NCBI GenBank assembly: GCA_016290135.1
Contig: JAEESW010000023.1
Span: 1-37,541 of the forward strand
Reading direction: 5' to 3'
Origin: a bacterium
GTDB lineage: Bacteria; UBP6; UBA1177
Length of the DNA stretch: 37,541 nt
A program made the translations under genes and the position numbers. Shown here one piece after another: positions 7,243 to 24,053 of this stretch. The notes below the pieces were generated by a model. That model was not told the origin of the DNA and made no database searches. It saw only the letters and a program-made list of their open reading frames with translations. Numbering within the stretch: position 1 is the stretch's first letter; each line of letters opens with the position of its first letter.

Positions 7243-7253
7243 TTCACACCTCT

Positions 7254-7877
7254 TTACAGCCTGTTTTCGCCGTCTCTTGAGAAGCAGCTTATCAAACCTA
7301 TTGTCTTCATTTTACCCAAAGAATAGCCGGAATTTGTATATCCCGGGATATCGGAAGCGGCATCTTTTGTAATGTTGGCGTTGCCGATTTCGATAATTTC
7401 ACGGACATCGACCGTGACATCGTAACATGCGTTTTTGTCACGCGAGAATTGTATCGTCGTGCTGTTCATACCGTTGATACCGTACATTCTGGCATTGGCA
7501 TCAGTGGTCAGCCTTCTCGCCACCGCACGGTATGCAAAAATCGGCTTTTCGCCTGAAGTTACCGAAATATCTCTCGGATAGTATCTGAAAGTTCCGTCGT
7601 TCGTTGAAGCATTACCGCCCATACCGCCGGAAATGGAGTATGCATCCTCGCACTCAAAGGTCGAATCGACAAGCTGCCTCAGCTCGCCGTTTACGATGTT
7701 TACAGCGGAATAGGCATAGGCCAAAAGTCTTCTGTCCTGAAGATCCTTGCCCGTAGTGTGGGCTGTTTCCGAAAGTCTGGCGACCGTCGCAAGAGCGATG
7801 ATCGAAAGACTCATCGTCATCAGGACAGTGATGAAAAGAGCGACACCTCTTTTTTTCACGGAATCTTTTTCAATCAT
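7254..7877 (-). CDS. PilX-like minor pilin
   Basis: A 207-residue protein with a basic leader and a long N-terminal hydrophobic helix (KKRGVALFITVLMTMSLSII, about residues 8-32). The start RGVALFITVL matches the PilX_N pattern, in which the usual Glu5 of pilins is absent. The rest is an extended globular domain. It lies between pilW-like and pilY1-like genes, as pilX does in Pseudomonas. The likely role is in the priming complex at the pilus tip that initiates assembly and displays PilY1. An AGAGGTG ribosome site precedes the ATG. Assignment rests on the helix and gene order rather than on similarity of the globular part. Confidence 0.8.
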   Translation of the reverse strand: MIEKDSVKKRGVALFITVLMTMSLSIIALATVARLSETAHTTGKDLQDRRLLAYAYSAVNIVNGELRQLVDSTFECEDAYSISGGMGGNASTNDGTFRYYPRDISVTSGEKPIFAYRAVARRLTTDANARMYGINGMNSTTIQFSRDKNACYDVTVDVREIIEIGNANITKDAASDIPGYTNSGYSLGKMKTIGLISCFSRDGENRL

Positions 7878-7887
7878 GTATCACCTC

Positions 7888-8943
7888 TTACTTTTTGACC
7901 TGATCTTCCAGCATCCTGAAATTAGCGAGATAGACGACCCGCTGAAAAACCGAAGCCGTATAGTTGGGATTTGTAAGTTCATAACAGTTATTAGTATTCT
8001 TATTGAAGATACAATATTTATTGGACATCGACGGAGCCGCATTGACATCTTTGGCTGTGACTCTGTCTTTTAAAGAAAGGAGGACGAAACCGAACCTGAC
8101 CGCTACGATATCGTTCCTCTCTTCAGCTGAGAAAGTCGTGACCCAAGTCCTTGATTCAACATCGCCTTCGATGGATTCCTTAAGGAATTCAAGAACAAAG
8201 AAAGGTATCTGAAAAGTCTGGTTCGCCTTATTGTCATATTCAAAATTTATAAGCTCGTTTTCAGCACCTGTCGGATTTCCGCTTGAATCCAGCTCTTTAT
8301 ACGTAAGTTTGAGCGATTTCGGATATGTATAAGTCAGCGCGTAGTAGAAATCCTCACCCGAAACAAGTGTCCCCGCGGGAAAACGCTGCTTGCAGGTCTT
8401 ACCGTCATCCGCCGACCATTCCTTATCGAAAGACTCCACCGTAACGATCGCGTTGTTTCCGCTGTAGCTCGGCGCCCCTATCTGTTTGGTAACATAGATG
8501 CCCTGCTGGTTGTGGATGTAAAGCTTGCTTATATTTGCATGGAACGCAGCACTGTTGAAGATCTTGAAAGTGCACGCGGGATACGTTCCGGAAGCGTCCT
8601 CCTGAAGTTTTGAGACCGGAGAACCGTAAGGAGAAAGATATGTGAACGAAACATGATCCTTTCCCAATCCGCCCCGGGGCGTTCCGCGAAGGATACCGAA
8701 AGCAGTGTCGCTCGTCTGAAGGTCGCCTATCTCACCGTTCAAGCCGATAAGTCTCATGGAATTTGCAAGCGTGTCCATGATCTGCTCTCCCAAAAGATTG
8801 ACAGAAACTCTGATCGATGAGGTCCTCTCGGTTTTCAACGAAGCTTCGTAAAGTTTATAGAAAGAGGCGATGACCGTAATGGTGAGAAATATGCTCACCA
8901 TAAGTTCAATAATGGTAAAAGCCCTGTTTTTTTCGATCTTCAT
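7888..8943 (-). CDS. PilW-like minor pilin
   Basis: About 351 residues starting MKIEKNRAFTIIELMVSIFL: a short basic leader, a prepilin cleavage site, Glu5, and a hydrophobic helix. The -1 residue is Ala rather than Gly. The frame extends to a TTG at 8958, but GGAG with a 6-base gap points to the second of two adjacent ATGs, at 8943. The length, large for a pilin, and the place between pilV-like and pilX-like genes fit PilW. The likely role is as a minor pilin in the tip initiation complex. It is coupled to the upstream gene, whose stop lies 11 bases before this start. Confidence 0.82.
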   Translation of the reverse strand: MKIEKNRAFTIIELMVSIFLTITVIASFYKLYEASLKTERTSSIRVSVNLLGEQIMDTLANSMRLIGLNGEIGDLQTSDTAFGILRGTPRGGLGKDHVSFTYLSPYGSPVSKLQEDASGTYPACTFKIFNSAAFHANISKLYIHNQQGIYVTKQIGAPSYSGNNAIVTVESFDKEWSADDGKTCKQRFPAGTLVSGEDFYYALTYTYPKSLKLTYKELDSSGNPTGAENELINFEYDNKANQTFQIPFFVLEFLKESIEGDVESRTWVTTFSAEERNDIVAVRFGFVLLSLKDRVTAKDVNAAPSMSNKYCIFNKNTNNCYELTNPNYTASVFQRVVYLANFRMLEDQVKK

Positions 8944-8954
8944 CATACACTCCG

Positions 8955-9524
8955 TCAATATTTATGATTGGATCTTACCAGCGGTATGGAAAGATAGTTG
9001 CATGCAGCCTCGGAATAATCTGCGAAACAGTTTTTGTCAGGATAGCCCTTTTTAGGCCAGTAGACTGAGACATCGACATGATAAAGTGTCGAAAGAAAAG
9101 TCCCCTGGGCAGCGTAAGTCTGCGTTTTATTGGCATAACTGTCAGCACGGACCGCCCTGTAGAACCTGTATGATCCGGTCGAATCCTGTGCTCCAAGAAT
9201 ATTGAAGGGGCTGTAGAGGAACTTGTCTCCGAAAAGTTTTGAATTCGTCATGACTGAGTCAAGCTGGGATGAAGTTCCGACAAGTGCAGTTTTCTGCGGA
9301 GTGGAAGTAGGATCTCCGACCATATCGCCGAACGATTCAAAAGACATCGAATTGATCTCGTCAACAAGGTTGAAAGCCAGAGCATGGGCAAACTGCGCCG
9401 ATTCATTGTCAAAGATCACAGCCATAGAGTGTGCGTGAAAAGCCATATACCCGAGCATCGAAGTTGTGAAAATAAAAATCGATATCATAACTTCTATAAG
9501 AGTGAAAGCTTTGATTTTATTCAT
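8955..9524 (-). CDS. PilV-like minor pilin
   Basis: A 189-residue protein starting MNKIKAFTLIEVMISIFIFT, a class III prepilin leader with Glu5 and a hydrophobic helix. Ala takes the place of Gly before the cleavage site. The pattern FTLIEVMISIFIFTTSMLGY is close to PilV/GspI-type minor pilins. It is followed by a segment of about 150 residues with few Cys. It lies second in the operon, as pilV does in Pseudomonas, with a strong AGGAAA-type ribosome site before the ATG. The likely role is assembly initiation of the type IVa pilus in the inner membrane and periplasm. Confidence 0.82.
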   Translation of the reverse strand: MNKIKAFTLIEVMISIFIFTTSMLGYMAFHAHSMAVIFDNESAQFAHALAFNLVDEINSMSFESFGDMVGDPTSTPQKTALVGTSSQLDSVMTNSKLFGDKFLYSPFNILGAQDSTGSYRFYRAVRADSYANKTQTYAAQGTFLSTLYHVDVSVYWPKKGYPDKNCFADYSEAACNYLSIPLVRSNHKY

Positions 9525-9533
9525 CTTTTCCTC

Positions 9534-10271
9534 CTATATATTCAGCGGATTGGCCGCAGAAGTAGTAAAAATCGAAGAATTGTATGAAGAGCTGTCCGAA
9601 AAAGCCGTGCAGACAAAATACTCTCCTGATTTGTCGACATCGATCCTGTACCAGATGGCGTCATTGGCCGTGCCGCTTATTTTTGACCTTACGACCGCGC
9701 TCATGACAAGCTGTTTAAGATGGTTGTCGCTGCCGCCGCATTTTCCGGGAGTCAAACTCGGAAAAGCGTCCGCCTTCGTCTTTACGACGCCGTTGGAATT
9801 GAAGACGAGCCTTCTCGAGAAACCTTCGTTGTCAGTATCGTTGTTGACAGCTTCTATCGAGACCGTATCCAAGAACAGATTTTTCTTGAGCAGTGTTGAT
9901 GTCTGCCAGCTCGCCGCCGTGTTTTCCATATCCTTTTTCTGATAGATCGAATACTCGTGCAGACCGAAGACTATCGCCGTCTGGAGCCTGATCCCGAGAT
10001 AGACATTCATGTCACCGCCTGTCGATTCGCCGGTCTCATCGTCGACTTTAACCGGAATCTTGATGACTCCGTTCGTATCGTCGCCTACGACAGTGTATCC
10101 CGCAACCGATCTCGCCTTTGAAAAATCGGAGAGAAGTTCCATAACTGCCTGAAGCCCTCTGTTCCTCGCATTCCACACCTGGACTTTGGGAACAGCCACA
10201 GTCGCGATTATCGTCAGAACCCCCATCGCGATCATCAGCTCGATCAATGAAAAACCTTTTGTCTTTCTCAC
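9534..10271 (-). CDS. FimU/FimT/GspH-like minor pilin, first gene of pilus operon
   Basis: About 245 residues. The frame is open from a TTG at 10286, but GGAGG followed by a 5-base gap favours the GTG at 10271, giving MRKTKGFSLIELMIAMGVLT. This has a Gly cleavage site, Glu5, and a hydrophobic helix ending AVPKVQVWNARNR, as in GspH/FimT proteins. The next stretch (LLSDFSKARSVA) is the typical FimT amphipathic continuation. It leads the operon, matching fimU of Pseudomonas, and lies directly downstream of the TATAAT box and direct repeats at 10306-10392. The likely function is as a minor pilin linking the tip complex to the major pilin. Confidence 0.85.
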   Translation of the reverse strand: MRKTKGFSLIELMIAMGVLTIIATVAVPKVQVWNARNRGLQAVMELLSDFSKARSVAGYTVVGDDTNGVIKIPVKVDDETGESTGGDMNVYLGIRLQTAIVFGLHEYSIYQKKDMENTAASWQTSTLLKKNLFLDTVSIEAVNNDTDNEGFSRRLVFNSNGVVKTKADAFPSLTPGKCGGSDNHLKQLVMSAVVRSKISGTANDAIWYRIDVDKSGEYFVCTAFSDSSSYNSSIFTTSAANPLNI

Positions 10272-10305
10272 GTCAGCCTCCGTCAAAAATCAACTCAAAA
10301 TTTTT

Positions 10306-10472: not shown

Positions 10473-13127
10473 CTATTTTTCTTGATTTTCGAGATTTTTC
10501 CGGAATTCGGCCGGAGTCATGCCTGTCTGTTTTTTGAAAATGTTGTTGAAAGTGGATTTCGAATTGAAGCCCGCCTCGATCGAAAGTTTCAGGATGCTTT
10601 TGTCGTCGTTCCTGTGGTCGCGCATCATCGAAATGACCTCTTCGAGCCTGTATGTGTTGACGAAATTGTAGAAGGTCTGACCGCAGTATCCGTTGAGGAC
10701 CTGGGAAAGCGTGTTTGCAGAAAGTTTCAGCTTCTTGGCGAGTTCCGGAAGAGTAAGATACGGATTTTTATAGAGTTTTTCTTTTTCCATCAGATCTTTT
10801 GCCTCTTTTGCGTAGGCTGCCGCGATCTCATCGTCAAGCTGATAGCCTTCATACTTCTGTTTTTCTCCTGGCACGTCTTTTTCCGGGTCAAAAAGTTCAC
10901 TTTCAGCAGTATTTTCAACGACTTCAGCATTAACATCGTAAAGCTCCGCGGGATCTTCCGCCTCTGCGTCAAGGCTCTCCTGCGGCAGCGTGTCCGGCTC
11001 TTGCAGAGAGACCGGCTGGTCAGGATTCGGCTGCGAAACAGTCTGAGAGCTTGGAGACTGCACCTCTTCCGGGCTCCCCTGAGATATCGGAGCCGGCTGC
11101 GAAGCAGTCTGAGAGGTCCCGCGCCCTCTCTTCACCGCGAAGAACAAAATTCCGGCAGCCAAAGCGGCCAGAACCGCCCAAACAGCATAACTTATTGATT
11201 TTTCTTCAATTTCATCATCAGAAGGCACACTTTTTTCCGGCACTGCAGAGTCAAATTTTTCAGGTCTTCTCCCGTTTTTCTTCAAAACCGCGATCCCTTC
11301 AAGGGTCGGGAACCACAGATCTCCGTTCCTGCGTTTCAGGACCGAAGGCTGGACTCCGCCGGTGGACTCGGGACGCCTGATCCCGTCATCAGAACCGAAA
11401 ACTTTGCATCCGACCCGGCCGTTTTCGCCGCGAGCCGCCTCAAGAACAGCTTTTTCTGAAAGAGAAAAGATCCCTTTCGTGCTTGAAAACCAGAGCTCTC
11501 CGAGATCGCCGGAAGTGATCCCGAGGATCGTGTCGCTGCACAGCCCTTTGCGGGAATCGACCCGCGAGATCTTCATATTTTTATCGATCAGAATGAGCCC
11601 GCTGTTCATCGTTCCGACAAAAACGGTCCCGTCGCCGCCGACATGGAGCGAGACTGGAACATCTGCTGCAAGTTCGTGATCTATTTCATGAAATTCGTCA
11701 TTTTCATCGAGCCGCCAGACCCCTTTCGAAGCTGCGAACCAAAGGTTTCCCGCTGTGTCTTCGGCAATAGAAGAGACAAAATCGGAATCATCACCGAATT
11801 TCCGGATGAGGCGCCATCCTTTTTTAGTGTAAAGATAGACAGAACCTCCGCTTCCTCCTGCCCAGAGGCGCGATTTTTTGTCGCGGAATATCGCACTGAC
11901 CGCATTCACGGCCGTTCCTTTATCGACAGGCATCCTACGGAAAACATTAGGTTTTTCCGGCAAAAATTCAATTATGCCGTCAGTAGTCCCGACAAGGATC
12001 TTCCCGTCTTCATTAAGGAACAGACCTCCGACAAAACGCCCGATGTCGCCTTTTCTGTCCTTCACATATTTGAATGTTTCATTTTCATAGACAAAAAGTC
12101 CGCCGCCGCGCGTCCCGGCCCAGACTCTACCTGAAGGATCTTCCAAAAGCGCGTAGACTTTTTCGTTCAGAAGACCCGATTCGCGCCCCAAAGTTATGAA
12201 TTTTCCAGGATAAAAGAGGGTAAGACCGCGACTGCCCGCGAGCCATACGAAACTGCCGTCGAGCATGACTTCCGAGGATGAGCCGACATCGGAACAGAAC
12301 GCTCCGCAGGGCTTCACGGCACCGTTTTCAACAAAAAAGAGAGTTCCGGCCGATGTAAAGACAAGGGTCTCTTCCCGGAAATCGATATCTTCGACAGGCT
12401 CTTTCGTCCCCGGGTCAGTGATCTTCTCACATTTTTTCCCTTTAATTTCAAGGATTTCGCCTTTTTCAGTCCCGACAAAGACCCTCCCTTCAGCCGCTTT
12501 CCCGGCCGTGATCTTAAGAGAGCTGCCGCTGCAGAGATTTTCCGAAAATCCGCTTTCACCGAGACTCCTCACTTCGCCGTTCTCAAATCCGGCGTAAAGA
12601 GCCGAACCGTCAGAAAAGAGTGAAGAGACCTGTGCTTCAGGAAAAGCCGTTTTTTTGCTCAACTTACTGATATCATTACCTTTTATTTCAAAGATCTCTT
12701 TACCGTCAGTTGCAAAAACGGTGCAGTCTCGCGCCGTCACGACATCAAAGATCCCGCGCCACGCAAAAAGTTTTTCCACCTTTCCGCCCGACTCAGAAAT
12801 TTCAGAGATTCCTGAAGCCGAAGCGACGAAAACTTTGCCGGTGCACCCTGACAAGCCGTTGATTTTATTGCTTAAAATCGCAGAACTTGTATTCGTAGAA
12901 AAAATTTCAGACGATCTTGAGTCTATCCGCACAAGCCCTTCCACTGTTCCTGCCCATACCAGACCGTCACCGTCGCGGTAAAAAGATGTGACATTGTTGT
13001 GGGGCAGAGCTGAAGATGACCATGTGCGCGTGGCGGAATGCAAAAAATCATAGAAAGAGAGTGCATCCCCGAAGATCCCGAAAGGAATCGAAAATAAAAT
13101 TGAGACGAAAATAAAACGACCAAACAT
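10473..13127 (-). CDS. Membrane-spanning one-component regulator: beta-propeller sensor, TM helix, AraC HTH
   Basis: An 884-residue protein. A signal sequence or first TM (residues about 1-21) is followed by many Reg_prop-type blades up to about residue 610, for example DGDGLVWAGTVEGLVRID, DPSGRVWAGTRGGGLFVY, KKSRLWAGGSGGSVYLY and DTAGNLWFAASKGVWRLD. A single TM helix lies at about 645-665 (AVWAVLAALAAGILFFAV), then an acidic Pro/Gln/Ser-rich linker to about 785. The end is an AraC/XylS double HTH (LTLPELAKKLKLSANTLSQV; SILKLSIEAGFNSKSTFNNI; GMTPAEFRKNLE). No histidine kinase or receiver is present, so it resembles a hybrid two-component sensor stripped to sensor plus DNA binder. It probably senses a periplasmic ligand and controls the pilus operon 202 bases downstream. 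A TTGACA at 13187-13192 (minus strand) may belong to its own promoter, but no good -10 follows. Confidence 0.9.
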   Translation of the reverse strand: MFGRFIFVSILFSIPFGIFGDALSFYDFLHSATRTWSSSALPHNNVTSFYRDGDGLVWAGTVEGLVRIDSRSSEIFSTNTSSAILSNKINGLSGCTGKVFVASASGISEISESGGKVEKLFAWRGIFDVVTARDCTVFATDGKEIFEIKGNDISKLSKKTAFPEAQVSSLFSDGSALYAGFENGEVRSLGESGFSENLCSGSSLKITAGKAAEGRVFVGTEKGEILEIKGKKCEKITDPGTKEPVEDIDFREETLVFTSAGTLFFVENGAVKPCGAFCSDVGSSSEVMLDGSFVWLAGSRGLTLFYPGKFITLGRESGLLNEKVYALLEDPSGRVWAGTRGGGLFVYENETFKYVKDRKGDIGRFVGGLFLNEDGKILVGTTDGIIEFLPEKPNVFRRMPVDKGTAVNAVSAIFRDKKSRLWAGGSGGSVYLYTKKGWRLIRKFGDDSDFVSSIAEDTAGNLWFAASKGVWRLDENDEFHEIDHELAADVPVSLHVGGDGTVFVGTMNSGLILIDKNMKISRVDSRKGLCSDTILGITSGDLGELWFSSTKGIFSLSEKAVLEAARGENGRVGCKVFGSDDGIRRPESTGGVQPSVLKRRNGDLWFPTLEGIAVLKKNGRRPEKFDSAVPEKSVPSDDEIEEKSISYAVWAVLAALAAGILFFAVKRGRGTSQTASQPAPISQGSPEEVQSPSSQTVSQPNPDQPVSLQEPDTLPQESLDAEAEDPAELYDVNAEVVENTAESELFDPEKDVPGEKQKYEGYQLDDEIAAAYAKEAKDLMEKEKLYKNPYLTLPELAKKLKLSANTLSQVLNGYCGQTFYNFVNTYRLEEVISMMRDHRNDDKSILKLSIEAGFNSKSTFNNIFKKQTGMTPAEFRKNLENQEK

Positions 13128-13225: not shown

Positions 13226-13273
13226 AGATTTGGTTTTTTAAAAATTATTTTGGTTTTAATAAAGGAGTTTCTG

Positions 13274-16200
13274 ATGAAAATTCTCAAAATTTTTCTCTGT
13301 GCGGCTTTCATTTTCACGATTGCGGCATGCGAAAGTAAAGATGACCATCATTACGAGTATCCCGATGACGATCCGACGACCGAGAAAGGAAACATCGGCG
13401 ATCCGTGCGTAAAAAACGACGACTGTAAAGACGGACTTTTCTGCATAGACAAAAAGTGCGGCAGGCCGTCACCTGACGAAGATACGAACGACGATGACAA
13501 CGATGCTGACACTCAGGACGACACGAATCCGGACGACGACACCGATACCGACACTGACACCGGAGACCATGATGCGGATACAGATACGGACGACGACACC
13601 GATACGAACGATGACGACGAACCCGATGACACTGACACGCAACCCGATGAAGACAGTGATACGACCCCGTACAATCCGGAATGCGGAAACGGCATAACAG
13701 AAATGGGTGAAGAGTGCGACAACGGCTTTGCCAACAGCGATGAGCCCGGCGATTACGACTCCACATGCCGCACGAACTGCAAATTCGCAGGATGCGGCGA
13801 CAATATCACCGACAACAGTGAAGCCTGCGATGACGGAAACAGACTGAACGGCGACTACTGCTCGGCTGACTGCCAGACTGTCACCGGCTACTGCGGCGAC
13901 GGGATCCAGCAGAACAATGAGGAATGTGATCCGAAAGACGATCCTTACTGCTCAAACGACTGCTCCGAAATAACAGGTTTTTGCGGCGACGGCATAATTC
14001 AGTTGAATGAAAAATGCGACAAGGCCAATCCAGGCGAAGGCGGAGGCCAGGGCACAAGCCCCTACTACTGCTCGTTCGACTGCATGGAAATCACCGGATG
14101 GTGCGGCGATAACGAAAGACAGATCGAAATCGAAGAGTGTGACGACGGTACAAACAACGGAAAGTACAACTACTGCAACACGACATGCTCCAACAAGGTC
14201 TTCTGTGGCGACGGCATAGTTCAGCCGGCATACGAAAAATGCGATGACGGAAACAACGAGAACGGAGACTACTGCTCTGCCGACTGCCAGACATCATACG
14301 GCTCGTGCGGCGACGGTACCGTTCAGTGGTTTGAAGCGTGTGACAAGGCAAATCCCGGCGAAGGCGGAAAGCAGGGGATCGGCGCATACTGTTCCAACGA
14401 CTGCAAAACCGTTTTGGGAGAATGCGGCGACTCTGAAATTCAGACAAACGCCGGTGAAGAGTGCGATAATGGCGAATTCAACGGCAACACCGGTTGTCCT
14501 TACGGGACAGTTACCGGATGCGAAGTCTGCTCTTCTAACTGCAAAAAGATCCCCGGAATTCCGAGATACTGCGGTGACGGCGTGATCCAGGCTGGCGAAG
14601 TATGCGATCCGGCTCTCGATCCGTATTGTTCAAGCGATTGCAAAAAGATCGAAGGTTCGTGCGGCGACGGTATAAAACAAAGCTTCGAAGCATGCGATAC
14701 AGCTCTTGATCCGTATTGTTCGAGCGATTGTAAAAGAATCGAAGGTTCGTGCGGCGACAACACCAAAAACGGCAATGAAGAATGCGATCTTGGCTCCAAT
14801 AACGGAAAGACAGACTGTGCTTACGGCAATACAAGCTGCAAAGTCTGCACGTTGGAATGTAAGGAAGCAGACGGAACACCTCACTACTGCGGCGACCACA
14901 GAAAGGACGAAGCAAACGGAGAAAGGTGCGATGACGGATCAGAACTCAACGGCACATACGGCTACTGCAAATCAGACTGCACCGGTATCGGCGAACACTG
15001 CGGCGACAGCATCAAAAACGGCAATGAAGACTGCGACCTCGGTGAAGGAGTCAACGGAACGATAACCGACTGCGCTTACGGTGAAACAAGCTGCAAAGTC
15101 TGCACGTCGGGATGTAAGGAAGCCGACGGGAACACTTCCTACTGCGGTGACGGAAGGACAGATACGGCAAACGGCGAAGCCTGTGACAAGGCAAACGACC
15201 CATATTGCGCAGACGACTGCCGCTCTGTGAACGGCTATTGCGGCGACGGAATAAAACAGGACAACGAGGCCTGCGATGACGGCAATACTGTCGACGGAGA
15301 CTACTGTTCGGCTGACTGCCAGACAATTACCGGATACTGCGGCGACAGAGTACAGCAGACCAATGAATCTTGTGACAGCGGAGAAAACAACGGCAAATAC
15401 AAACTGAACTATCCGCCATACTGCAACAGTGACTGCAACGGCTACAGCGGATACTGCAACGACGGAAATATAGACAGCGCTGACGGTGAAGAGTGCGACG
15501 AAGGTCCGGAACTCAACGGAAAAATAAACTGCGAGTACGGTCAGACAAGCTGCTCTGTATGCAACTCCAGCTGCAAGATCCGCAGCGGCGAGACTTCATA
15601 CTGCGGAGACGGAACCGTTGATGCGGCAAACGGAGAAGTATGCGATGACGGCAACAATCTTGACGGCGACTACTGCTCGGCTGACTGCCAGACTGTTACC
15701 GGCTATTGCGGCGACGGAATAAAACAGGACAACGAAGCCTGTGACGACGGTAACAACGACAACAACGACTATTGCTCATACAACTGTCAGACTGTAACAG
15801 GATACTGCGGTGACGGAACGAGGCAGCTTAACGAAGCATGCGATAATGCCGATCCGAGCGTAGGTGCCGGAGAAGGTATCGGCGATTACTGTTCGTTCGA
15901 CTGTCAGCAGAGTTCCGGCTATTGCGGAGACGGAACAGTACAGACCAACGAAGCATGCGATGACGGCAACAATCTTGACGGCGACTACTGCTCGGCAGAC
16001 TGTCAGACTGTTACAGGCTCTTGCGGCGACGGAACAGTCCAAACCAACGAAGCATGCGATGACGGCAACAATCTTGACGGAGACTACTGCTCGGCAGACT
16101 GTCAGACTGTTACAGGCTCTTGCGGCGACGGAACGAAACAGGATATAGAAACATGCGATGACGGCGACGGAGTCAACGGAACATACAACCACTGTAACAG

Positions 16201-18577
16201 CAGCTGCGACGGATATATGCCGAGATGCGGTGACGAAAACATCGACACGGACTACGGCGAAGTCTGCGACGAAGGTGCGGTGAACGGAACATATCTCCAC
16301 TGCAGCAGTGACTGCACATACATTACAAGATGCGGCGACGGCGTAAAACAGCCGAATGAAAACTGCGACGATGGTGATGAAAACGGCAGTTACGGTTTAT
16401 GCAACAACAGCTGCACCGGAATCACCGGCAAATGCGGTGACGGTATCTGGCAGAACGATAACTGCGGAGGAGCCGAAGGATGCATCGAGATCACCGGAGG
16501 TCCTGAAGAGTGCGATTACGGCTATCAGAACGGCGCTACGGAATGTGAATACGGCAAGAAACAGTGCTACGTATGCACGTTATCATGCATGAAAATCGAA
16601 GGAAACACTTCCTATTGCGGCGACGGGAACATCGACTACGCTCACGGAGAGGCGTGCGACGACGGAGACGACAACGGCGATTTCGGCAAATGCGACACCA
16701 CCTGCAAAGAAGTCGTAACCTGGAAATGCGGTGACGGAAATATCGACTGGACTCACGGCGAAACATGCGACGACGGAGACGACAACGGAACTCCGGAGCA
16801 CTGCAATTCGACATGCAGCGGTCCTACTCCTTACTGCGGAGACGGAAGGACTCAGCGCGAAGACTGCGGCAGCTGGCCTGTCTGCAATGAAACTCTGACT
16901 GAAAACTGCTGCGAAGTCATTGAAGGAATGAGCGAAAAGTGCGATGACGGAGAATGGAACGACCGTCAGGGATACTGTTACAGCGACTGCTCGGGTTACT
17001 GCGGTGACGGCAAGATACAGCGTGAAGACTGCGGCTCGCTGCCTCTCTGCGATGAAAACACGACTGAAAACTGCTGCGTAGTTTCTGCAGGAGTAAACGA
17101 AGTCTGCGATGAAGGTTACGAGTTCAACGGGCAGATCGGTCACTGCAACTGGACATGCGACGACAACACTGCAGTCTGCGGCAACGGGATCGTTGAAAAG
17201 GGCGAAGCTTGTGACGACGGCGACGACAACGGAAAATACGGCAAATGCGATCCTTTCTGTAAAGGAGATCCTACGCTTAACGGCTACTGCGGCGACGGCA
17301 AAGTCCAGAAATCCGATCCGGAACACTGCGGCACACTGCCTCTCTGCACAGAAAGCGTGACACAAAACTGCTGCGAAATAAAATCATTCGGAGCCGGCAT
17401 TCCTGAAGAGACCTGCGATGAAGGCAAAGATAATAACGGATACCACGGTCACTGCAATCTCACATGCAGCGGCATATCTTCATGCGGCGACGGCGAACTC
17501 GGAAAGGACGAAATATGTGAACCTGGAACAATGGAATCTGCTTTCCAGTGCAATATGATCCCGCAGTTCAGCACCACAGATGAAAGCATAATGGTGACCG
17601 ACTGCGACTCCGACTGTATGCCGGTTTTTGACAACTGTGTATATGACAACAGCTATACGAGTCCGTTCTTCACTACAGGACAGATCTTGTGCTACAACAA
17701 TTCAGCCGCCGACTCATGTCCGGTCAACGAAACCGACGATTTCTACGGTCAGGAGCCGCAATTCAGCTATATGACTCACGATTTTGAAGTCATTGCCAAC
17801 GGTGAAATAATCGTCGACAACGCATCAGGACTTATGTGGCAGACCGACACGCCGTCGATCTATAGCGCAGAAATAAAAGAGACATATTACACCTGCGAAG
17901 CATCATCATCCTGCACTGCGACCGAAGCCGATTATTACTGCAGCTTCACCGACATAGGCGGATATTCCAACTGGAGACTGCCGACCGCTGCAGAGTTGTC
18001 GACAATCATGGATTACGCTTCGGCTTCACATCTCTACTCAGGCTTCACCAATACGAGCGGATCCTATTGGACAAGCGACGGTATCGTCTTCTCCAGCACC
18101 GACGGCACATCCTTCCCGTCAACAGGAACTGCGAAGATCAAATGTGTCCGCACGATCGACGACTCAGACAACGGCTGCACAGCGCTTCAATGTTCGGGAA
18201 AAGATGACGAAAGCACTTTCATACTTGAATCACCCGATATGACGATGCTGTTCAGGGAAGTTGACGATATGTACTTCACCTTCTGGCATTTTGACAGTCT
18301 CACAACCGGCGAATCATGGAAAAACGCGCTTGCGACCTGCGCCGCTTTCGACAACTCGAACGGCATCAACAAAATGAGACTTCCGACTGTCAACGAGCTG
18401 ATGTGGCTTATCGACAGAGAAAACGGAGGTTCTCTGATATACGGATTCGCGGGCAAAGCATGGACTTCGACGACATTCGCTACCGATCCGTCAAAGGCTT
18501 ACGCCGTAGATTTCTCGACAGGAAGCGTCGTCACGGATACGAAAGGCACCAACAATATTGTTATCTGCGTTGAATAG
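13274..18577 (+). CDS. Giant lipoprotein: acidic stalk, about 33 cysteine-rich repeats, two DUF1566 domains
   Basis: About 1767 residues from the ATG at 13274, which has AAAGGAG six bases upstream; the in-frame start at 13250 lacks a ribosome site. A lipoprotein signal ends TIAAC with Cys19 as the lipidated residue. A short Cys-containing segment follows (CVKNDDCKDGLFCIDKKC), then an Asp/Thr-rich low-complexity stalk to about residue 133. About 33 units of the Myxococcus cysteine-rich repeat type (CGDG..Q.NEACDDGNN..GDYCS.DCQ) run to about residue 1415. The C-terminus holds two DUF1566/Lcl-like domains with WRLPTAAEL and MRLPTVNEL motifs and Cys near each end. It is probably anchored in the outer membrane and rigidified by disulfides; the ligand is unknown. 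It is followed within 10 bases by a smaller relative at 18588. Confidence 0.92.
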   Translation: MKILKIFLCAAFIFTIAACESKDDHHYEYPDDDPTTEKGNIGDPCVKNDDCKDGLFCIDKKCGRPSPDEDTNDDDNDADTQDDTNPDDDTDTDTDTGDHDADTDTDDDTDTNDDDEPDDTDTQPDEDSDTTPYNPECGNGITEMGEECDNGFANSDEPGDYDSTCRTNCKFAGCGDNITDNSEACDDGNRLNGDYCSADCQTVTGYCGDGIQQNNEECDPKDDPYCSNDCSEITGFCGDGIIQLNEKCDKANPGEGGGQGTSPYYCSFDCMEITGWCGDNERQIEIEECDDGTNNGKYNYCNTTCSNKVFCGDGIVQPAYEKCDDGNNENGDYCSADCQTSYGSCGDGTVQWFEACDKANPGEGGKQGIGAYCSNDCKTVLGECGDSEIQTNAGEECDNGEFNGNTGCPYGTVTGCEVCSSNCKKIPGIPRYCGDGVIQAGEVCDPALDPYCSSDCKKIEGSCGDGIKQSFEACDTALDPYCSSDCKRIEGSCGDNTKNGNEECDLGSNNGKTDCAYGNTSCKVCTLECKEADGTPHYCGDHRKDEANGERCDDGSELNGTYGYCKSDCTGIGEHCGDSIKNGNEDCDLGEGVNGTITDCAYGETSCKVCTSGCKEADGNTSYCGDGRTDTANGEACDKANDPYCADDCRSVNGYCGDGIKQDNEACDDGNTVDGDYCSADCQTITGYCGDRVQQTNESCDSGENNGKYKLNYPPYCNSDCNGYSGYCNDGNIDSADGEECDEGPELNGKINCEYGQTSCSVCNSSCKIRSGETSYCGDGTVDAANGEVCDDGNNLDGDYCSADCQTVTGYCGDGIKQDNEACDDGNNDNNDYCSYNCQTVTGYCGDGTRQLNEACDNADPSVGAGEGIGDYCSFDCQQSSGYCGDGTVQTNEACDDGNNLDGDYCSADCQTVTGSCGDGTVQTNEACDDGNNLDGDYCSADCQTVTGSCGDGTKQDIETCDDGDGVNGTYNHCNSSCDGYMPRCGDENIDTDYGEVCDEGAVNGTYLHCSSDCTYITRCGDGVKQPNENCDDGDENGSYGLCNNSCTGITGKCGDGIWQNDNCGGAEGCIEITGGPEECDYGYQNGATECEYGKKQCYVCTLSCMKIEGNTSYCGDGNIDYAHGEACDDGDDNGDFGKCDTTCKEVVTWKCGDGNIDWTHGETCDDGDDNGTPEHCNSTCSGPTPYCGDGRTQREDCGSWPVCNETLTENCCEVIEGMSEKCDDGEWNDRQGYCYSDCSGYCGDGKIQREDCGSLPLCDENTTENCCVVSAGVNEVCDEGYEFNGQIGHCNWTCDDNTAVCGNGIVEKGEACDDGDDNGKYGKCDPFCKGDPTLNGYCGDGKVQKSDPEHCGTLPLCTESVTQNCCEIKSFGAGIPEETCDEGKDNNGYHGHCNLTCSGISSCGDGELGKDEICEPGTMESAFQCNMIPQFSTTDESIMVTDCDSDCMPVFDNCVYDNSYTSPFFTTGQILCYNNSAADSCPVNETDDFYGQEPQFSYMTHDFEVIANGEIIVDNASGLMWQTDTPSIYSAEIKETYYTCEASSSCTATEADYYCSFTDIGGYSNWRLPTAAELSTIMDYASASHLYSGFTNTSGSYWTSDGIVFSSTDGTSFPSTGTAKIKCVRTIDDSDNGCTALQCSGKDDESTFILESPDMTMLFREVDDMYFTFWHFDSLTTGESWKNALATCAAFDNSNGINKMRLPTVNELMWLIDRENGGSLIYGFAGKAWTSTTFATDPSKAYAVDFSTGSVVTDTKGTNNIVICVE
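13476..13674 (+). repeat. Asp/Thr-codon low-complexity stalk region
   Basis: The DNA is a run of GAC/GAT and ACN codons encoding alternating Asp and Thr (for example DTDTDTGDHDAD). It links the lipid anchor to the repeat domain. The same composition is found in the companion lipoprotein at about 18680-18990. Such tracts are prone to slippage. Confidence 0.75.
13680..17530 (+). repeat. Tandem cysteine-rich coding repeats (about 33 units)
   Basis: Units begin CGDG, CGDN or a variant and contain EACDDG or ECD-type cores. They range from about 28 to over 60 residues, the longer ones carrying an extra Cys-containing insert (for example the CNETLTENCCEV type). Most units have diverged, but the pair at 15923-16120 is nearly identical. 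The count is by eye and could be off by one or two. Confidence 0.85.
15923..16120 (+). repeat. Two adjacent near-identical 99-bp repeat units
   Basis: Units starting at 15923 and 16022 are each 99 bases (33 codons) and encode almost the same peptide, CGDGTVQTNEACDDGNNLDG followed by DYCSADCQTVTGS or a near variant. They differ at only a few synonymous or near-synonymous bases. A third, related unit starts at 16121. This is the mark of a recent unit duplication inside the gene. Confidence 0.85.
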
Positions 18578-18587
18578 GAGGACAATC

Positions 18588-19916
18588 ATGAAACTGAGGA
18601 AATTTTTCTTCTTTACGCTCGTTTTCGCGGCACTCGTCTTCTGCATAAGCTGCAAAGGGAAAAATGATCCCTATGCAGATCTGGACGATGACATAATCCA
18701 TGACGATTCCGACACATCGGCTGACACCGCTCCGGACAGTGATGACGACACCGGTGACACGACTGACGACAATACAGATACAGCGCCGGACGACGACACA
18801 GATACCGATACCGGCGATCACGACAATATTCCGGACGAGTCGCACGAGACCGATCCCGACCCGGTTGATGACAGTGACTCTCAGTCTCAGGATGAGGACA
18901 CAGACGAACCTGAAGACGATCCGAGCAACGATGACGATGCAGATACTGAAGAACAGGGAGACGAAGACTCGATCCCTGAAAAAGATGATCCGGAAACGAT
19001 CTGCACTGGTCAGACCCAGTGTTTTAGCAGCAAGCAGGAAATAAGCTGCCCATCCGCTCCTGAAGCTGATTTCTTCGGTCAGGATGCCCAATACGCAAAC
19101 AAGGGCTACTGCCTGAACAAGAGCTTCTCGACAACGAACGATCTTGTAACAGACAATATCTCCGGACTCATCTGGCAGAGAAAACTTCCGGAAGAAGGAT
19201 GTCCGAATCACGGTGACGGAACAAATGTGGTCGTATGCACAAAACAGGAGGCTGTCAATTACTGCAACAATCTGAACCTTGCCGGCTTTGATGACTGGCG
19301 TCTCCCGACTCCGGAAGAATTTGCGACGATCAAAAATTTCGGATCTGTCCCAGCCATTCATACAACTGCAGACACCGAGTATTTCCCGCTGCCGGCATCA
19401 AGTGTAAAGACTTTCTGGACAGGATCATCTTCAGGTTCAAGCGGAAAGAGCTGGTCAGTAGATTTTCTGAACGGAGAAACGAAAGACGACCAGAAAGATT
19501 CAACAGCTTTATATGTCCGCTGTGTCAGAGGAGAAGAACTTGCCAAACCGGTATTCAAAACTTTCCCCACAGACGAGGGAGAGGAGATAGTATACGATTA
19601 TACAAACGAATTGAGATGGACCAAAACTTTCGGCGAAGAGATGACATGGAAACAGGCTTTGAAATACTGTGAAAACCTTGAATATGCAAATGAAAAAGAT
19701 TGGAGGCTGCCTAACATAAACGAACTCGCATCTCTTGTTGATTATTCCATTTCAGGACCGGCTTCCGAATTTCCGGGTTTGATACTTGCCTATTTCTGGA
19801 GTTCTACATCGTATGCCGGATACCCGTCACAGGCATGGACCACCGACATGACTTCCGGAACAGTCAAGATATACAACGGGAAAACTTACTCCGCCAGAGT
19901 CATCTGCGTAAAATAG
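18588..19916 (+). CDS. Lipoprotein with acidic stalk and two DUF1566 domains
   Basis: 442 residues from the ATG at 18588, six bases after AGGAGG; the AG of that site is part of the TAG stop of the giant lipoprotein gene, so the two are co-transcribed and coupled. The signal MKLRKFFFFTLVFAALVFC is followed by ISC; Cys22 is the likely lipidated residue although Cys at -3 is not ideal. An Asp/Glu/Thr-rich stalk spans about residues 30-140. Two DUF1566/Lcl-like domains follow, with GLIWQR, DDWRLPTPEEF and YVRCVRG in the first, and LRWTKTF, DWRLPNINELASL, YFWSST and ARVICVK in the second. It resembles the ends of its upstream neighbour without the cysteine-rich repeats. Surface location is likely; the function of DUF1566 is unknown to me. 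Confidence 0.88.
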   Translation: MKLRKFFFFTLVFAALVFCISCKGKNDPYADLDDDIIHDDSDTSADTAPDSDDDTGDTTDDNTDTAPDDDTDTDTGDHDNIPDESHETDPDPVDDSDSQSQDEDTDEPEDDPSNDDDADTEEQGDEDSIPEKDDPETICTGQTQCFSSKQEISCPSAPEADFFGQDAQYANKGYCLNKSFSTTNDLVTDNISGLIWQRKLPEEGCPNHGDGTNVVVCTKQEAVNYCNNLNLAGFDDWRLPTPEEFATIKNFGSVPAIHTTADTEYFPLPASSVKTFWTGSSSGSSGKSWSVDFLNGETKDDQKDSTALYVRCVRGEELAKPVFKTFPTDEGEEIVYDYTNELRWTKTFGEEMTWKQALKYCENLEYANEKDWRLPNINELASLVDYSISGPASEFPGLILAYFWSSTSYAGYPSQAWTTDMTSGTVKIYNGKTYSARVICVK

Positions 19917-19928
19917 GTCCTATTTTTT
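19910..19928. terminator. Palindrome at convergent gene ends, possible bidirectional terminator
   Basis: AAAATAGG and CCTATTTT flank a single T, giving a perfect 8-base inverted repeat with T runs on both strands. The TAG stop codons of the plus-strand lipoprotein gene and of minus-strand lgt both lie inside it. The stem is A/T-rich and the loop would have to open to about three bases, so strength is doubtful. Confidence 0.45.
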
Positions 19929-20789
19929 CGTATTTTCAGGATTTTTCGTCTTTTTGAACAGCATAAAACCGCCGATAAAAAGAACGATCGAGATCCACTG
20001 GCTTGTGGAAAACATGAGAAAACTTCCGCGTATGTCGTAGCGCAGAAATTCGATTATAAAACGCGTCACCGAGTATGAAAGAAGGAAAATCGCCGAAATA
20101 TATCCGGGTCCCCTCTTTTCTTTCGAGCATGCAAGTTTCAACAAAACGATGAATATCACCAAGTTGCTAAACGAATGGATGAGCTGAGTCGGAATCAGCG
20201 GCTGGGTGTCGGTAAAAAGACTCGTGTGATCCGGATCGATGTGGAAAAGCGAGAACATCGTTCTTGAGCCTTGGGGAAAGCGTATACCGAACAACTGAGA
20301 CGGCCTTCCGAAGCAGCACCCTTCAAGAAAGCAGCCGATACGTGTGAGCCAAAGCCCGTTCGCAACACATATCGAGGCGGCATCCGCGGTCTTGAGGAAC
20401 GATCTTTTGTCGTGCGGATAGGCGATCATGGTAAAAACTGCGCCGGCAATGAATCCTCCCAAAAGTCCGCCGTAAAAAACATGCCCCGCAACAAAAGGGT
20501 TGAGCATCCTGGTAAAAAGATAGCTTATGCCGTTTGCCTTCAGACCTTCGAAATAAGTCATCAGCATCCCTTCGAAAAGGATGTGAAATATCTTTGAAAC
20601 GACCAGTGCCGACGGAACTATGACAAGGGGCATTCCTATCATCTTTTTCAAGCTCAGACTGAAGCGTTTCGAAGTCCAGATCATGATCGGAAGCGTCATG
20701 AAAAACGAAAAAAAGAGGATAGTCATGTATGCGCCGGGATAAGGCACAGCGAAAATTTCAAAAAGAGGCTTGAAAAGATCAGGATTCAT
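19920..20789 (-). CDS. lgt: Prolipoprotein diacylglyceryl transferase
   Basis: A 289-residue polytopic inner-membrane protein. Lgt moves diacylglycerol from phosphatidylglycerol to the lipobox Cys of prolipoproteins, the first step of lipoprotein maturation. Family marks are GHVFYGGLLGGFIAG, the signature TRIGCFLEGCCFGRPSQLFG, PTQLIHS and SYSVTRFIIEFLRYD (the conserved Arg-rich end helix). Where E. coli has HGG (His103), this protein has YGG. The ATG at 20789 has AGGAG seven bases upstream; a longer frame to 20849 lacks a site and would overlap more. The gene overlaps the ParA-like gene by 11 bases, so it is the last gene of the FHA-ankyrin-ParA operon. The window holds at least four lipoproteins it could serve. 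Confidence 0.9.
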   Translation of the reverse strand: MNPDLFKPLFEIFAVPYPGAYMTILFFSFFMTLPIMIWTSKRFSLSLKKMIGMPLVIVPSALVVSKIFHILFEGMLMTYFEGLKANGISYLFTRMLNPFVAGHVFYGGLLGGFIAGAVFTMIAYPHDKRSFLKTADAASICVANGLWLTRIGCFLEGCCFGRPSQLFGIRFPQGSRTMFSLFHIDPDHTSLFTDTQPLIPTQLIHSFSNLVIFIVLLKLACSKEKRGPGYISAIFLLSYSVTRFIIEFLRYDIRGSFLMFSTSQWISIVLFIGGFMLFKKTKNPENTKK

Positions 20790-22413
20790 GCGCCTTCTCC
20801 TGCTGAGAAGCGTCTTCAGCCGAAAGTTCCGGAACAGCCGACTCGGCATTTTTGGATCTGATATAGCCCGAGGCGATAAATTCAGTATTCGCTGAGTTCA
20901 GTTTCAGTGTTTTGCAGTACTGCTGGACAAAATTTTTCACATAAAGATCGGCGGGAAGCTGGTTGTACATATCATTTTCGATCGCATAAAGCACTGTGTT
21001 CGAGATCTTGGTGCGGGAAATTATCAGTTCATAAGAGATCCCGACTTCTTCGCGTATCTTTCTCAAAAGATCGCCGGTGATCGGCAGACCCCTGTATTTA
21101 TTGAAGATATTGTTTGCATCTATAAGATCGCCGTCTCCCGAAGACGAGACCTCCTTTTCGGCGCTCCGGCCGAACACGTCCTTTTTGACGAGGACTTCGC
21201 GTTTCTTCACGCGGTTGTATTTTTTGATGACTTCTCCGATGATGAAAATATCGGGAAAAGAAGTTTCAAGCGAAAGAAGATGGGTCGCGATATCCATGTC
21301 ATACTCGCGCCTTATTTCAGGATCGTTGAGTTCTTTGAAGATCGTATCTACAAGCGCGTTCAGGATAAAAAGGTCGCTGTCTTCGTAGATGTCGCGCAGC
21401 ATCGGATTGTCACTGACATAAAGTTTTTTGAGTTTTTCATACTGGTTGTTGATGTCAAAAGTCGAGCAGCCGCGGTCAAGACCGAACCACTCGTAATAGT
21501 TGAACGGGGTTATCCGCAGTTTCTTTTTGACCGAACTCTGCTGGAAAAGGCGCGAAGAGAGCGTGCTGACAAGATCGTCAAGTGCGTCGATGAATTCCGA
21601 GTTAGCCTCGAGGGTCACGACAGGTTTCATCGCCGCGATCGAAGTCGGAACAAGGTCGGAATAAGCTATCTCAGCGATACAGTCCGTGTCTATGCCGAAA
21701 CTGCTGCTTATTATAAAGCGGTAAAGCTGCGCGAGCTCTTTGTCTGCCGAATTGCGCATGCCGTTGTAGACTATGCCTATCTTGAGATCGGTCTCAATGT
21801 TCGCGATCTGGTTGGAATTTTTCGGAATAGCCTGGGAAAGCAGCACAAGAAGGTTCCTGAATGTAAAAAGATAATCCTTTTTTGCGCGCCGTATGTTCAG
21901 CGTTTCGAGCTGGATATCATACTTGAGTTCGAGATTGCGGAGCCTGTAGTTGACGAGCTCTCTGAAAAAATAGTTGCTTTTCTCGAACGAAACGAAATCG
22001 GGCGAAATGAACATGAGCGAATAGTCCGCTATTCCGATCACTTCCATAAGATCGGGATTCACGACCGAACCCATATCGATGAAGACAAAGTCAAACTGCC
22101 CCTGCCCCATCTCGCCTTTCCAGCGGATCAGAAGCTCGCTTATTTTCGAGCCCTGATGCTGCAGGTTGCTGAAAAAGCTGAGATTCTGATAGTTTGTCGA
22201 GATAAGCGGCAGCACCGAGAAATGCTCGGCGACTTCATCGGAAACAGCGATAGTCGGAAGATTAAGATAGGCGTGCAGAGTCCCGCCGTTCGGAGCCGCA
22301 TCAATAAGAAGGACTTTCTTTCCTTTCTGGGCAAGATAGATGGAAAGATTCGCGATTATCATTGAAGTTCCCGCTCCGCCCTTCGGAGAAAATGCTGCGA
22401 TCAGCTTTACCAT
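20779..22413 (-). CDS. ParA/CpaE-like ATPase fused to a J-like segment and a RodZ-type HTH
   Basis: 544 residues. Residues 1 to about 280 are a ParA/MinD-type ATPase. The P-loop SPKGGAGTS keeps the deviant signature Lys but has Thr where the second P-loop Lys should be, as in CpaE/TadZ-type proteins. Switch I-like LLIDAAPNGGT and Walker B FVFIDMGS follow. Residues about 304-375 look like a DnaJ J-domain (YYEWFGLDRGCSTFDINNQY ... LNDPEIRREYD) but lack the HPD triad. Residues about 445-530 match the RodZ-type HTH_25 domain (LLRKIREEVGISYELIISRT ... LPADLYVKNFVQQYCKTLKL). No TM helix is seen, so it is probably cytoplasmic. CpaE-type proteins position pilus or secretion machines at poles; a similar scaffold role is an inference. 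Confidence 0.85.
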   Translation of the reverse strand: MVKLIAAFSPKGGAGTSMIIANLSIYLAQKGKKVLLIDAAPNGGTLHAYLNLPTIAVSDEVAEHFSVLPLISTNYQNLSFFSNLQHQGSKISELLIRWKGEMGQGQFDFVFIDMGSVVNPDLMEVIGIADYSLMFISPDFVSFEKSNYFFRELVNYRLRNLELKYDIQLETLNIRRAKKDYLFTFRNLLVLLSQAIPKNSNQIANIETDLKIGIVYNGMRNSADKELAQLYRFIISSSFGIDTDCIAEIAYSDLVPTSIAAMKPVVTLEANSEFIDALDDLVSTLSSRLFQQSSVKKKLRITPFNYYEWFGLDRGCSTFDINNQYEKLKKLYVSDNPMLRDIYEDSDLFILNALVDTIFKELNDPEIRREYDMDIATHLLSLETSFPDIFIIGEVIKKYNRVKKREVLVKKDVFGRSAEKEVSSSGDGDLIDANNIFNKYRGLPITGDLLRKIREEVGISYELIISRTKISNTVLYAIENDMYNQLPADLYVKNFVQQYCKTLKLNSANTEFIASGYIRSKNAESAVPELSAEDASQQEKAHES

Positions 22414-22427
22414 TCAGTTCACCTCTA

Positions 22428-23141
22428 CTATAATTTTTCCTTTATTTTCTGTGTGTATGCCTCGATCTCGTCGAATGTCTCCCTGTCAATACGCCCGGCT
22501 TCGAGCGATTCAGCAGCATAGTCGAGCGCCGTTCTGCCGCTGTGGTCCTTTGCAAGCGGCGAAACTCCTGCGGAAATGAGGAATCTGACATAAGCCGGCC
22601 TCCCCTTTTCCGCCGCGATCAAAAACAGAGTCTTTTTGTCTTTGTCGCGCCTTTCGAGATCCGTCGATTTTCCGGCGAGCATCCTGAACAATCCGATGTC
22701 CTCTTCCACTGCAAGAGCCGCGAGAGTGTTTGCCGCGTCACGTCCGAAATTATCCTGAAGGTTTGCGTCGGCGCCGTTTTCAAGCAGGAACCGGGCACAT
22801 TCGAAAGAATTTCCGGCAGCGGCATAGTGAAGCGGAGTTTTTTCTGAGTTGTCCATTATTTTAAGGTTGGCGCCCGCCGCGGCCAGCTTTTTCAGCATCG
22901 TGCAGTCCTTTTTGGAAGATGCCGTCATGACTGCGTTACGCCCCGATCTGTCGGCAAAGTTGAGAAGTTCAGGCATCTTCAGAAAAATGTCAAGAGCCTT
23001 TTCGTCATCGTTTCCGACAGCCTCCAGAAGTCCCGGCCCGTCAGCCTCATATCCCGCTTTGTTAAGCAGAGAAGCGTTGTCTTCGGAACATGAGATCAAA
23101 ACAAAAACAATGAAAAGAATCGACAGAACAGAGGATTTCAT
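22428..23141 (-). CDS. Ankyrin-repeat lipoprotein
   Basis: 237 residues from the ATG at 23141, preferred over an in-frame TTG two codons earlier because it gives a proper signal peptide, MKSSVLSILFIVFVLISC, with Cys18 in a good lipobox (LISC). About five ankyrin units follow, the clearest being KTPLHYAAAGNSFECARFLL ENGADANLQD and KTLFLIAAEKGRPAYVRFLI SAGVSPLAKD. Ankyrin repeats bind proteins, so this is probably an envelope adaptor with its repeats in the periplasm. It sits between the FHA gene (24-base gap) and the ParA-like gene (14-base gap) in one operon. No strong ribosome site is visible. The partner protein cannot be named. Confidence 0.85.
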   Translation of the reverse strand: MKSSVLSILFIVFVLISCSEDNASLLNKAGYEADGPGLLEAVGNDDEKALDIFLKMPELLNFADRSGRNAVMTASSKKDCTMLKKLAAAGANLKIMDNSEKTPLHYAAAGNSFECARFLLENGADANLQDNFGRDAANTLAALAVEEDIGLFRMLAGKSTDLERRDKDKKTLFLIAAEKGRPAYVRFLISAGVSPLAKDHSGRTALDYAAESLEAGRIDRETFDEIEAYTQKIKEKL

Positions 23142-23165
23142 TTGCAAAACTTGCGTCTCAACGCA

Positions 23166-24053
23166 TTAAAGGACAAAAAAGAACACTGCGCCTGCGGCAG
23201 CTGCGGCAAGAAAAATAATTCCGAGAGCTATGGCGATCTTTTTGCCGGCGCCCGATCTGTTCACGCGGGTGACTTCGGTCTTCTCGTCCTGCTCCGCATC
23301 GTTGATGCTTCTTATTTTCCTGCCTTTTATATCTTTTCTCAGTTTTTCCTTTCTTGATTTCTCTGCCTCGAGCTGATACGGCTGCGGATCATAGGTCTCA
23401 TCCTTCTCGACGAACTCGAACAGAAAATCACCGACCCTGATCTCGTCCCCGTTCCTCATGTCGACGGAGTTGACTTCGGTATCGTTCACGATGAGCGGAT
23501 AGTCCGCATTGTAGTCGCCTTTTACAAGAAGGTAGATGTTGCCGTCGAAAACGATCTTTGAATGTATCGGCGGGATATCTTCGGATGAAAGATAGACATC
23601 GGCGCTTGCGTGCGAACCTATTACAGTTTCTCTTCCGGCAAGAGGGAAGATCTTTCCGCCGAGATAGCCGTTCTTGGCAAGAAGAAGATTGTCCTGCGCC
23701 ACCTTTACGCCTGAAGCCTCGACTGCCGGCTGGACAGTTCTGAGAAGAGCTTCGTCGTCCTGTTCAAGATAAATGTTGTAATCGCCGGCGGTTATGACGT
23801 TGCCGACAAAGATCTCGAGCTTTTCGCCGACAAGTTCGCGCTCGTCGACAAAAGTGTGGTTGTAGCTTCCGCGGTCGCAGATGATTATCCTTCCGTCAAC
23901 GATCTCGAGCTGGAAGTGATAACGCGACACATTCCTTTCATCCAGGACGAGATCGTTTTTCGGACTTCGCCCTACGGTGATAAGGTTACCGTTGAACTCG
24001 AAAATATTCAGTTCGTTTCTGTCGTTTTCGACTATGAGTTTCAGAACAGCCAT
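23166..24053 (-). CDS. Double FHA-domain protein with C-terminal membrane anchor
   Basis: 295 residues. The first FHA domain (about 5-98) has the full phosphothreonine-binding set: GRSPKNDLVL, VSRYHFQL and GSYNHTFVDE. The second (about 120-215) has VIGSHASADV and IPPIHSKI, lacks the SRxH motif and is probably degenerate for phosphopeptide binding. A charged linker (about 220-265) and one TM helix near the end (IAIALGIIFLAAAAAGAVFF) make it a tail-anchored inner-membrane protein with cytoplasmic FHA domains. FHA proteins read Ser/Thr kinase signals; no kinase is encoded in this window. It is the first gene of the minus-strand operon running to lgt, driven from the symmetrical promoter at 24085-24112. 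Confidence 0.9.
   Translation of the reverse strand: MAVLKLIVENDRNELNIFEFNGNLITVGRSPKNDLVLDERNVSRYHFQLEIVDGRIIICDRGSYNHTFVDERELVGEKLEIFVGNVITAGDYNIYLEQDDEALLRTVQPAVEASGVKVAQDNLLLAKNGYLGGKIFPLAGRETVIGSHASADVYLSSEDIPPIHSKIVFDGNIYLLVKGDYNADYPLIVNDTEVNSVDMRNGDEIRVGDFLFEFVEKDETYDPQPYQLEAEKSRKEKLRKDIKGRKIRSINDAEQDEKTEVTRVNRSGAGKKIAIALGIIFLAAAAAGAVFFFVL

Follow-up and report, generated by a model that had tools for sequence, protein, structure and literature searches.

What does a MinD-like protein do once its nucleotide site has lost catalytic residues and its chain continues into two further domains? This question is raised by a gene in the window analysed here, that is, the whole 37,541-nucleotide stretch of DNA, which derives from a rumen bacterium (genome of 2.47 Mb in 66 contigs, 98% complete). 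A sequence-only reading of the window had described an ORF with ParA-type, J-like and RodZ-type HTH parts at 20779-22413, naming no strand. We confirmed this ORF of 544 aa at 22413..20779 on the minus strand. It is real, orthologues being present in 20 of the 28 genomes of the phylum, which is more than chance. Its product is a degenerate MinD-like/J-like/HTH_25 fusion protein devoid of any hydrophobic or transmembrane segment (maximum 19-residue hydropathy 1.32).

The fusion gene starts about 15 bases past the end of an ankyrin-repeat gene, and its own end is overlapped by the start codon (ATG at 20789) of the gene for Lgt, prolipoprotein diacylglyceryl transferase (19920..20789, minus strand). 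Owing to this short gap and the overlap, FHA, ankyrin, fusion and Lgt genes can be regarded as one tightly packed minus-strand run. The first gene of the run (23166..24053, minus strand) codes for a protein with an FHA domain and a hydrophobic segment at its C-terminus and stays near the fusion gene throughout the taxonomic order. The ankyrin-repeat protein (22428..23147, minus strand) carries a lipoprotein-like signal and is confined to the genus of the source organism.

Elsewhere in the window, a type IV pilus-like cluster occupies 1051-10286 on the minus strand. One of its products has 2063 aa and matches PilY1 below threshold, and several of its ORFs have pilin-like starts; N_methyl was found in the protein encoded at 9534-10286. 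A single chain with regulator propellers and, at its C-terminus, an AraC-type HTH is encoded at 10473-13127 (minus strand). A cysteine-rich protein of 1775 aa with DUF4215 repeats and C-terminal Lcl_C is encoded at 13250-18577 on the plus strand and adjoins a second Lcl_C protein (18558-19916).

Residues 1-290 of the fusion protein (21544..22413, minus strand) form a domain of MinD/ParA (SIMIBI) fold, as expected of deviant Walker A ATPases. In Pfam searches of the 544-aa protein, CbiA (1.3e-9) and AAA_31 (9e-8) both exceed their cut-offs in this N-terminal part, and CBP_BcsQ exceeds its cut-off as well. The predicted model of the full protein (mean pLDDT 78) matches FlhG, MinD, NifH and BcsQ, and the top fold matches of the MinD-like domain are the FlhG/MinD structures 4rz2, 4rz3, 1hyq and 4v02 (target TM-scores 0.70-0.78). 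The "ParA/CpaE-like" label given by the sequence-only reading thus stands in its first half. We reject its second half, since the score with the Actino CpaE model is 19.2, where 154 would be needed, and the N-terminal receiver-like domain characteristic of CpaE/TadZ is absent, the ATPase domain beginning at residue 1.

The deviant Walker A motif reads KGGAGTS (residues 11-17; 22363..22383, minus strand). Its signature lysine is retained and the P-loop lysine is replaced by threonine, just as had been claimed from the letters. A second change had been missed: the DxD motif is altered to DAA (residues 38-40; 22294..22302, minus strand), so that the first aspartate is kept and the second is lost. 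In MinD, the second aspartate of DxD is a catalytic residue. Ten of ten diverse orthologues from the phylum show KGGxGTS and DAA without variation, and none has the P-loop lysine of the KGGxGK[S/T] consensus or the complete DxD. The aspartate of the switch II/Walker B motif FIDMG (residues 111-115; 22069..22083, minus strand) is retained. Mean column identity amounts to 0.94 in the P-loop versus 0.68 across residues 1-290. Since threonine and DAA do not vary in these ten sequences and the pocket is conserved above the domain average, the degenerate site seems to be held by selection.

The J-like domain (residues 305-372; 21298..21501, minus strand) and the RodZ-type HTH_25 domain (residues 449-508; 20890..21069, minus strand) follow. 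HTH_25 is clearly recognised by Pfam (7.1e-16, 58.2 bits versus a cut-off of 24.6), whereas DnaJ remains below threshold (E 0.0079, 16.7 bits versus 27.8). Failure of the J profile had been named beforehand as a refutation, and the single sequence comes close to it; it is overturned by relatives and by fold. The DnaJ cut-off is passed by five relatives. Two, from G071 and G370, are J-HTH proteins; the other three, from G400, G273 and G470, are triple fusions and carry all three domain types in a single protein, each above its Pfam cut-off. In the predicted J-HTH model (mean pLDDT 88), the J part matches 5nro (target TM 0.86) and 6rzy (0.83) and the HTH part matches RodZ 2wus (0.77) and YmfM 3fym (0.71), with Foldseek E-values of these short domain matches above 0.001. 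We therefore reject the possibility that the J segment is a chance match. Taken together, the profile check proposed by the sequence-only reading returned CbiA, AAA_31 and HTH_25 in the protein itself and DnaJ in relatives, and structure prediction yielded the MinD/FlhG, J-domain and RodZ folds.

The J-like domain was said to lack HPD, and indeed this motif is present in none of 28 aligned J-HTH sequences. As it is missing throughout the family, stimulation of DnaK is unlikely. The HTH_25 domain carries an aromatic pair, Y491-x3-F495 (20929..20943, minus strand), which is retained in all 28 aligned J-HTH proteins and is the counterpart of the MreB-contacting pair F60/Y64 of E. coli RodZ (PMC4047632). 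This agrees with the RodZ-type assignment made earlier.

Distribution within the phylum is uneven. Three genomes of family f4 yield weak ParA matches only. No orthologue was detected in five congeners of the source organism, among them G026 and G019. Only G026 is more than 90% complete (96%); three are below 85%, and the locus in G019 is broken by a contig end just after MtnA. Clade-wide loss in these congeners is thus not secure, with G026 the sole fair case. In the G026 assembly neither the fusion gene nor the FHA orthologue was seen, suggesting that the module is dispensable there.

In four sister genomes (G004, G011, G012 and G013), two adjacent genes, MinD-like and J-HTH, are found instead of one fusion. 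The order of genes in sister genera is a 353-aa protein of no assigned family, FHA, MtnA, TPR/transglutaminase lipoprotein, MinD-like, J-HTH, Ser/Thr kinase with PEGA domain, HSP33-like (in some) and NAD kinase. The gene between FHA and TPR/transglutaminase genes is MtnA-like, of the IF-2B family (L047:4146-5201 and equivalents). The source genome has its kinase orthologue, with about 66% identity, at an unlinked site on contig C64 (L226:8511-9908), where it adjoins polysaccharide-export-like genes.

The combination also occurs beyond the phylum. Searches with J-HTH profiles revealed an HPD-less J-HTH_25 gene immediately downstream of its MinD-like neighbour in f44, f48, f53, f67, f77, f111, f153 and f185; counted by family, the pair or fusion occurs in at least eight further families outside the phylum. 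Triple fusions of about 510-600 aa are common in the phylum of G400. The fusion protein conforms to this arrangement, in which a MinD-like part precedes an HPD-less J and HTH_25 in the same chain or in the next gene, and the "unusual architecture" of the sequence-only reading does not hold, the trio being widespread. No relevant description of it was found in open-licence papers. It is seemingly undescribed and, far from being an isolated curiosity, looks like a scaffold for cell organisation that has yet to be studied.

MinD-like partners outside the phylum mostly retain KGGxGK[S/T] and DxD, and the fusion protein can therefore be seen as a degenerate branch. In a tree of 44 MinD-like domains, some of them on long branches, sequences of the phylum form one group (100/100), to which G413 is nearest; G413 likewise lacks the P-loop lysine and the second aspartate. 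On this tree, a minimum of six changes is required to account for loss of the lysine, five for loss of the second aspartate and four for fusion state. The repeated losses make turnover look dispensable in several branches, and repeated fusion or fission, together with adjacency elsewhere, suggests that the halves work as one unit. Linked loss of the two residues, an impression given by the motif table, did not stand up on the tree (median p 0.5 in a sign test); in L144 and L147 the second aspartate is lost and the lysine retained. Genes next to the pair in other phyla, where read, code for HNH nuclease, pseudouridine synthase or patatin-like proteins and not for FHA or kinase. The ORF after the J-HTH gene of G076 is patatin-like (L126:1193-2101), and a similar start is present in G071 (downstream end of L088).

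How should the lost residues be interpreted? E. coli BcsQ (MG1655) has RGGVGTT and DAC, i.e. the same replacement of P-loop lysine by threonine and the same loss of the second aspartate. BcsQ is described as a sandwich dimer with bound ATP that contributes to activation of cellulose synthase (PMC11470070). For E. rectale TadZ, ATP hydrolysis is reported to occur without either lysine (PMC10482377). Given both precedents, nucleotide binding or turnover is not readable from sequence alone. The proposal that the protein is a scaffold and not an enzyme is thus plausible, and loss and invariance of two catalytic-site residues speak for it, but the step from a missing lysine to a missing enzyme does not hold, as BcsQ binds ATP and TadZ is reported to be active.

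The reading we prefer, to which we would give about even chances, is that the protein is a non-cycling structural dimer displaying a J-like/HTH_25 adaptor, likely in an FHA/Ser-Thr kinase setting and with MreB as a possible partner. The degenerate SIMIBI domain, of MinD/FlhG/BcsQ type, would serve as a structural dimer, either locked with nucleotide or needing none, and would bring two cytoplasmic copies of the adaptor together. Protein docking, and not a DnaK co-chaperone function, would be the role of the J-like and HTH_25 parts, probably in the surroundings of a membrane FHA/Ser-Thr kinase signalling module. We infer dimerisation, absence of turnover, binding of partners and a connection with kinase signalling or MreB from several lines. 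A non-cycling dimer is favoured by loss of two residues and by the seeming dispensability of turnover in several branches. By analogy, BcsQ with the same double change serves as an ATP-bound dimeric regulator. The setting is suggested by FHA and kinase genes around the MinD-like/J-HTH pair in sister genera; against this reading stand the unlinked kinase orthologue in the genus of the source organism and the lack of the module in G026, and since neighbours differ in other phyla, partnership with FHA/kinase may not be general.

With the TadZ report as precedent, turnover might be slow rather than absent. The protein might accordingly be a working atypical ATPase, which binds and slowly hydrolyses nucleotide and cycles as a MinD/ParA positioning motor, with some other residue, possibly Lys145, in place of the missing lysine. 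Signature lysine, first aspartate and switch II aspartate are all retained, and K145 does not vary among the ten orthologues, the same position being occupied by asparagine in many partners outside the phylum. However, P-loop lysine and second aspartate are both gone and any role of K145 is conjectural, and we consider this explanation unlikely, albeit the strongest competitor.

Somewhat more doubtful still is that the protein is a cytosolic substitute for RodZ. In this view, HTH_25 would bind MreB, and the MinD-like dimer would stand in for the membrane anchor and the periplasmic portion of RodZ. MreB is encoded in all 28 genomes, and the 20 gene-bearing ones show no full-length HTH_25 match besides the fusion or J-HTH protein; family f4, which lacks the gene, has a short RodZ-like HTH_25-transmembrane protein. 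RodZ fold and aromatic pair are in accord with this view, but conservation of the pair in every J-HTH protein aligned does not single out the fusion protein. Moreover, G026 and other congeners have MreB without fusion gene or full HTH_25, and G071 encodes a J-HTH protein plus a transmembrane RodZ-like protein. A DNA-bound regulator or chromosome-associated factor, with HTH_25 on the DNA and dimerisation provided by the ParA-like part (compare large ParA with N-terminal HTH), is suggested by the HTH fold and by the common pairing of ParA-type proteins with DNA binders, but it is highly improbable, as HTH_25 is best known as the protein-binding domain of RodZ and the FHA/Lgt/kinase surroundings point to the envelope.

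We put forward a broader scheme as a long shot. The pair of MinD-like and HPD-less J-HTH_25 proteins would be an undescribed system for positioning or assembly, widespread among bacteria; within this taxonomic order it would have lost turnover, become fused in several genera and, as the sole HTH_25 replacing RodZ, come to couple a membrane signal from FHA and Ser/Thr kinase to MreB or to some other partner in the cytoplasm.

Double loss at the catalytic site together with a conserved pocket is more interesting than the architecture. MinD/ParA proteins place many things in bacterial cells, and a branch that seems to have dropped catalysis while its pocket is under selection would test the need for ATP turnover. 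With catalytic residues lost and halves fused more than once, the pair represents a natural experiment, in which split and fused forms allow joint work of the halves to be tested.

Finally, the fusion protein can be compared with known systems. TadZ/CpaE, which are implicated in polar positioning, belong like the fusion protein to the ParA/MinD superfamily and have an altered Walker A; the fusion protein differs in the absence of a receiver domain and scores far below the cut-off of the Actino CpaE model. It shares with RodZ the HTH_25 domain, in sequence and fold, and the aromatic pair, but has neither transmembrane helix nor periplasmic domain. FlhG and MinD are its closest folds and the signature lysine is common to all three, whereas they lack the J-HTH tail and their P-loop and DxD are intact (PMC9178275). 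With BcsQ, structures of which are among the fold matches, it has in common the MinD-type fold, the lysine-to-threonine change in the P-loop and the lost second aspartate. On the other hand, BcsQ has also lost the signature lysine, has BcsR as its partner, is encoded in a cellulose operon and carries neither J nor HTH_25. The MinD-like plus J-HTH_25 pair of other phyla mostly retains KGGxGK[S/T] and DxD and has different neighbours, but here the likeness extends to all three domains in identical order, with a J part that lacks HPD.
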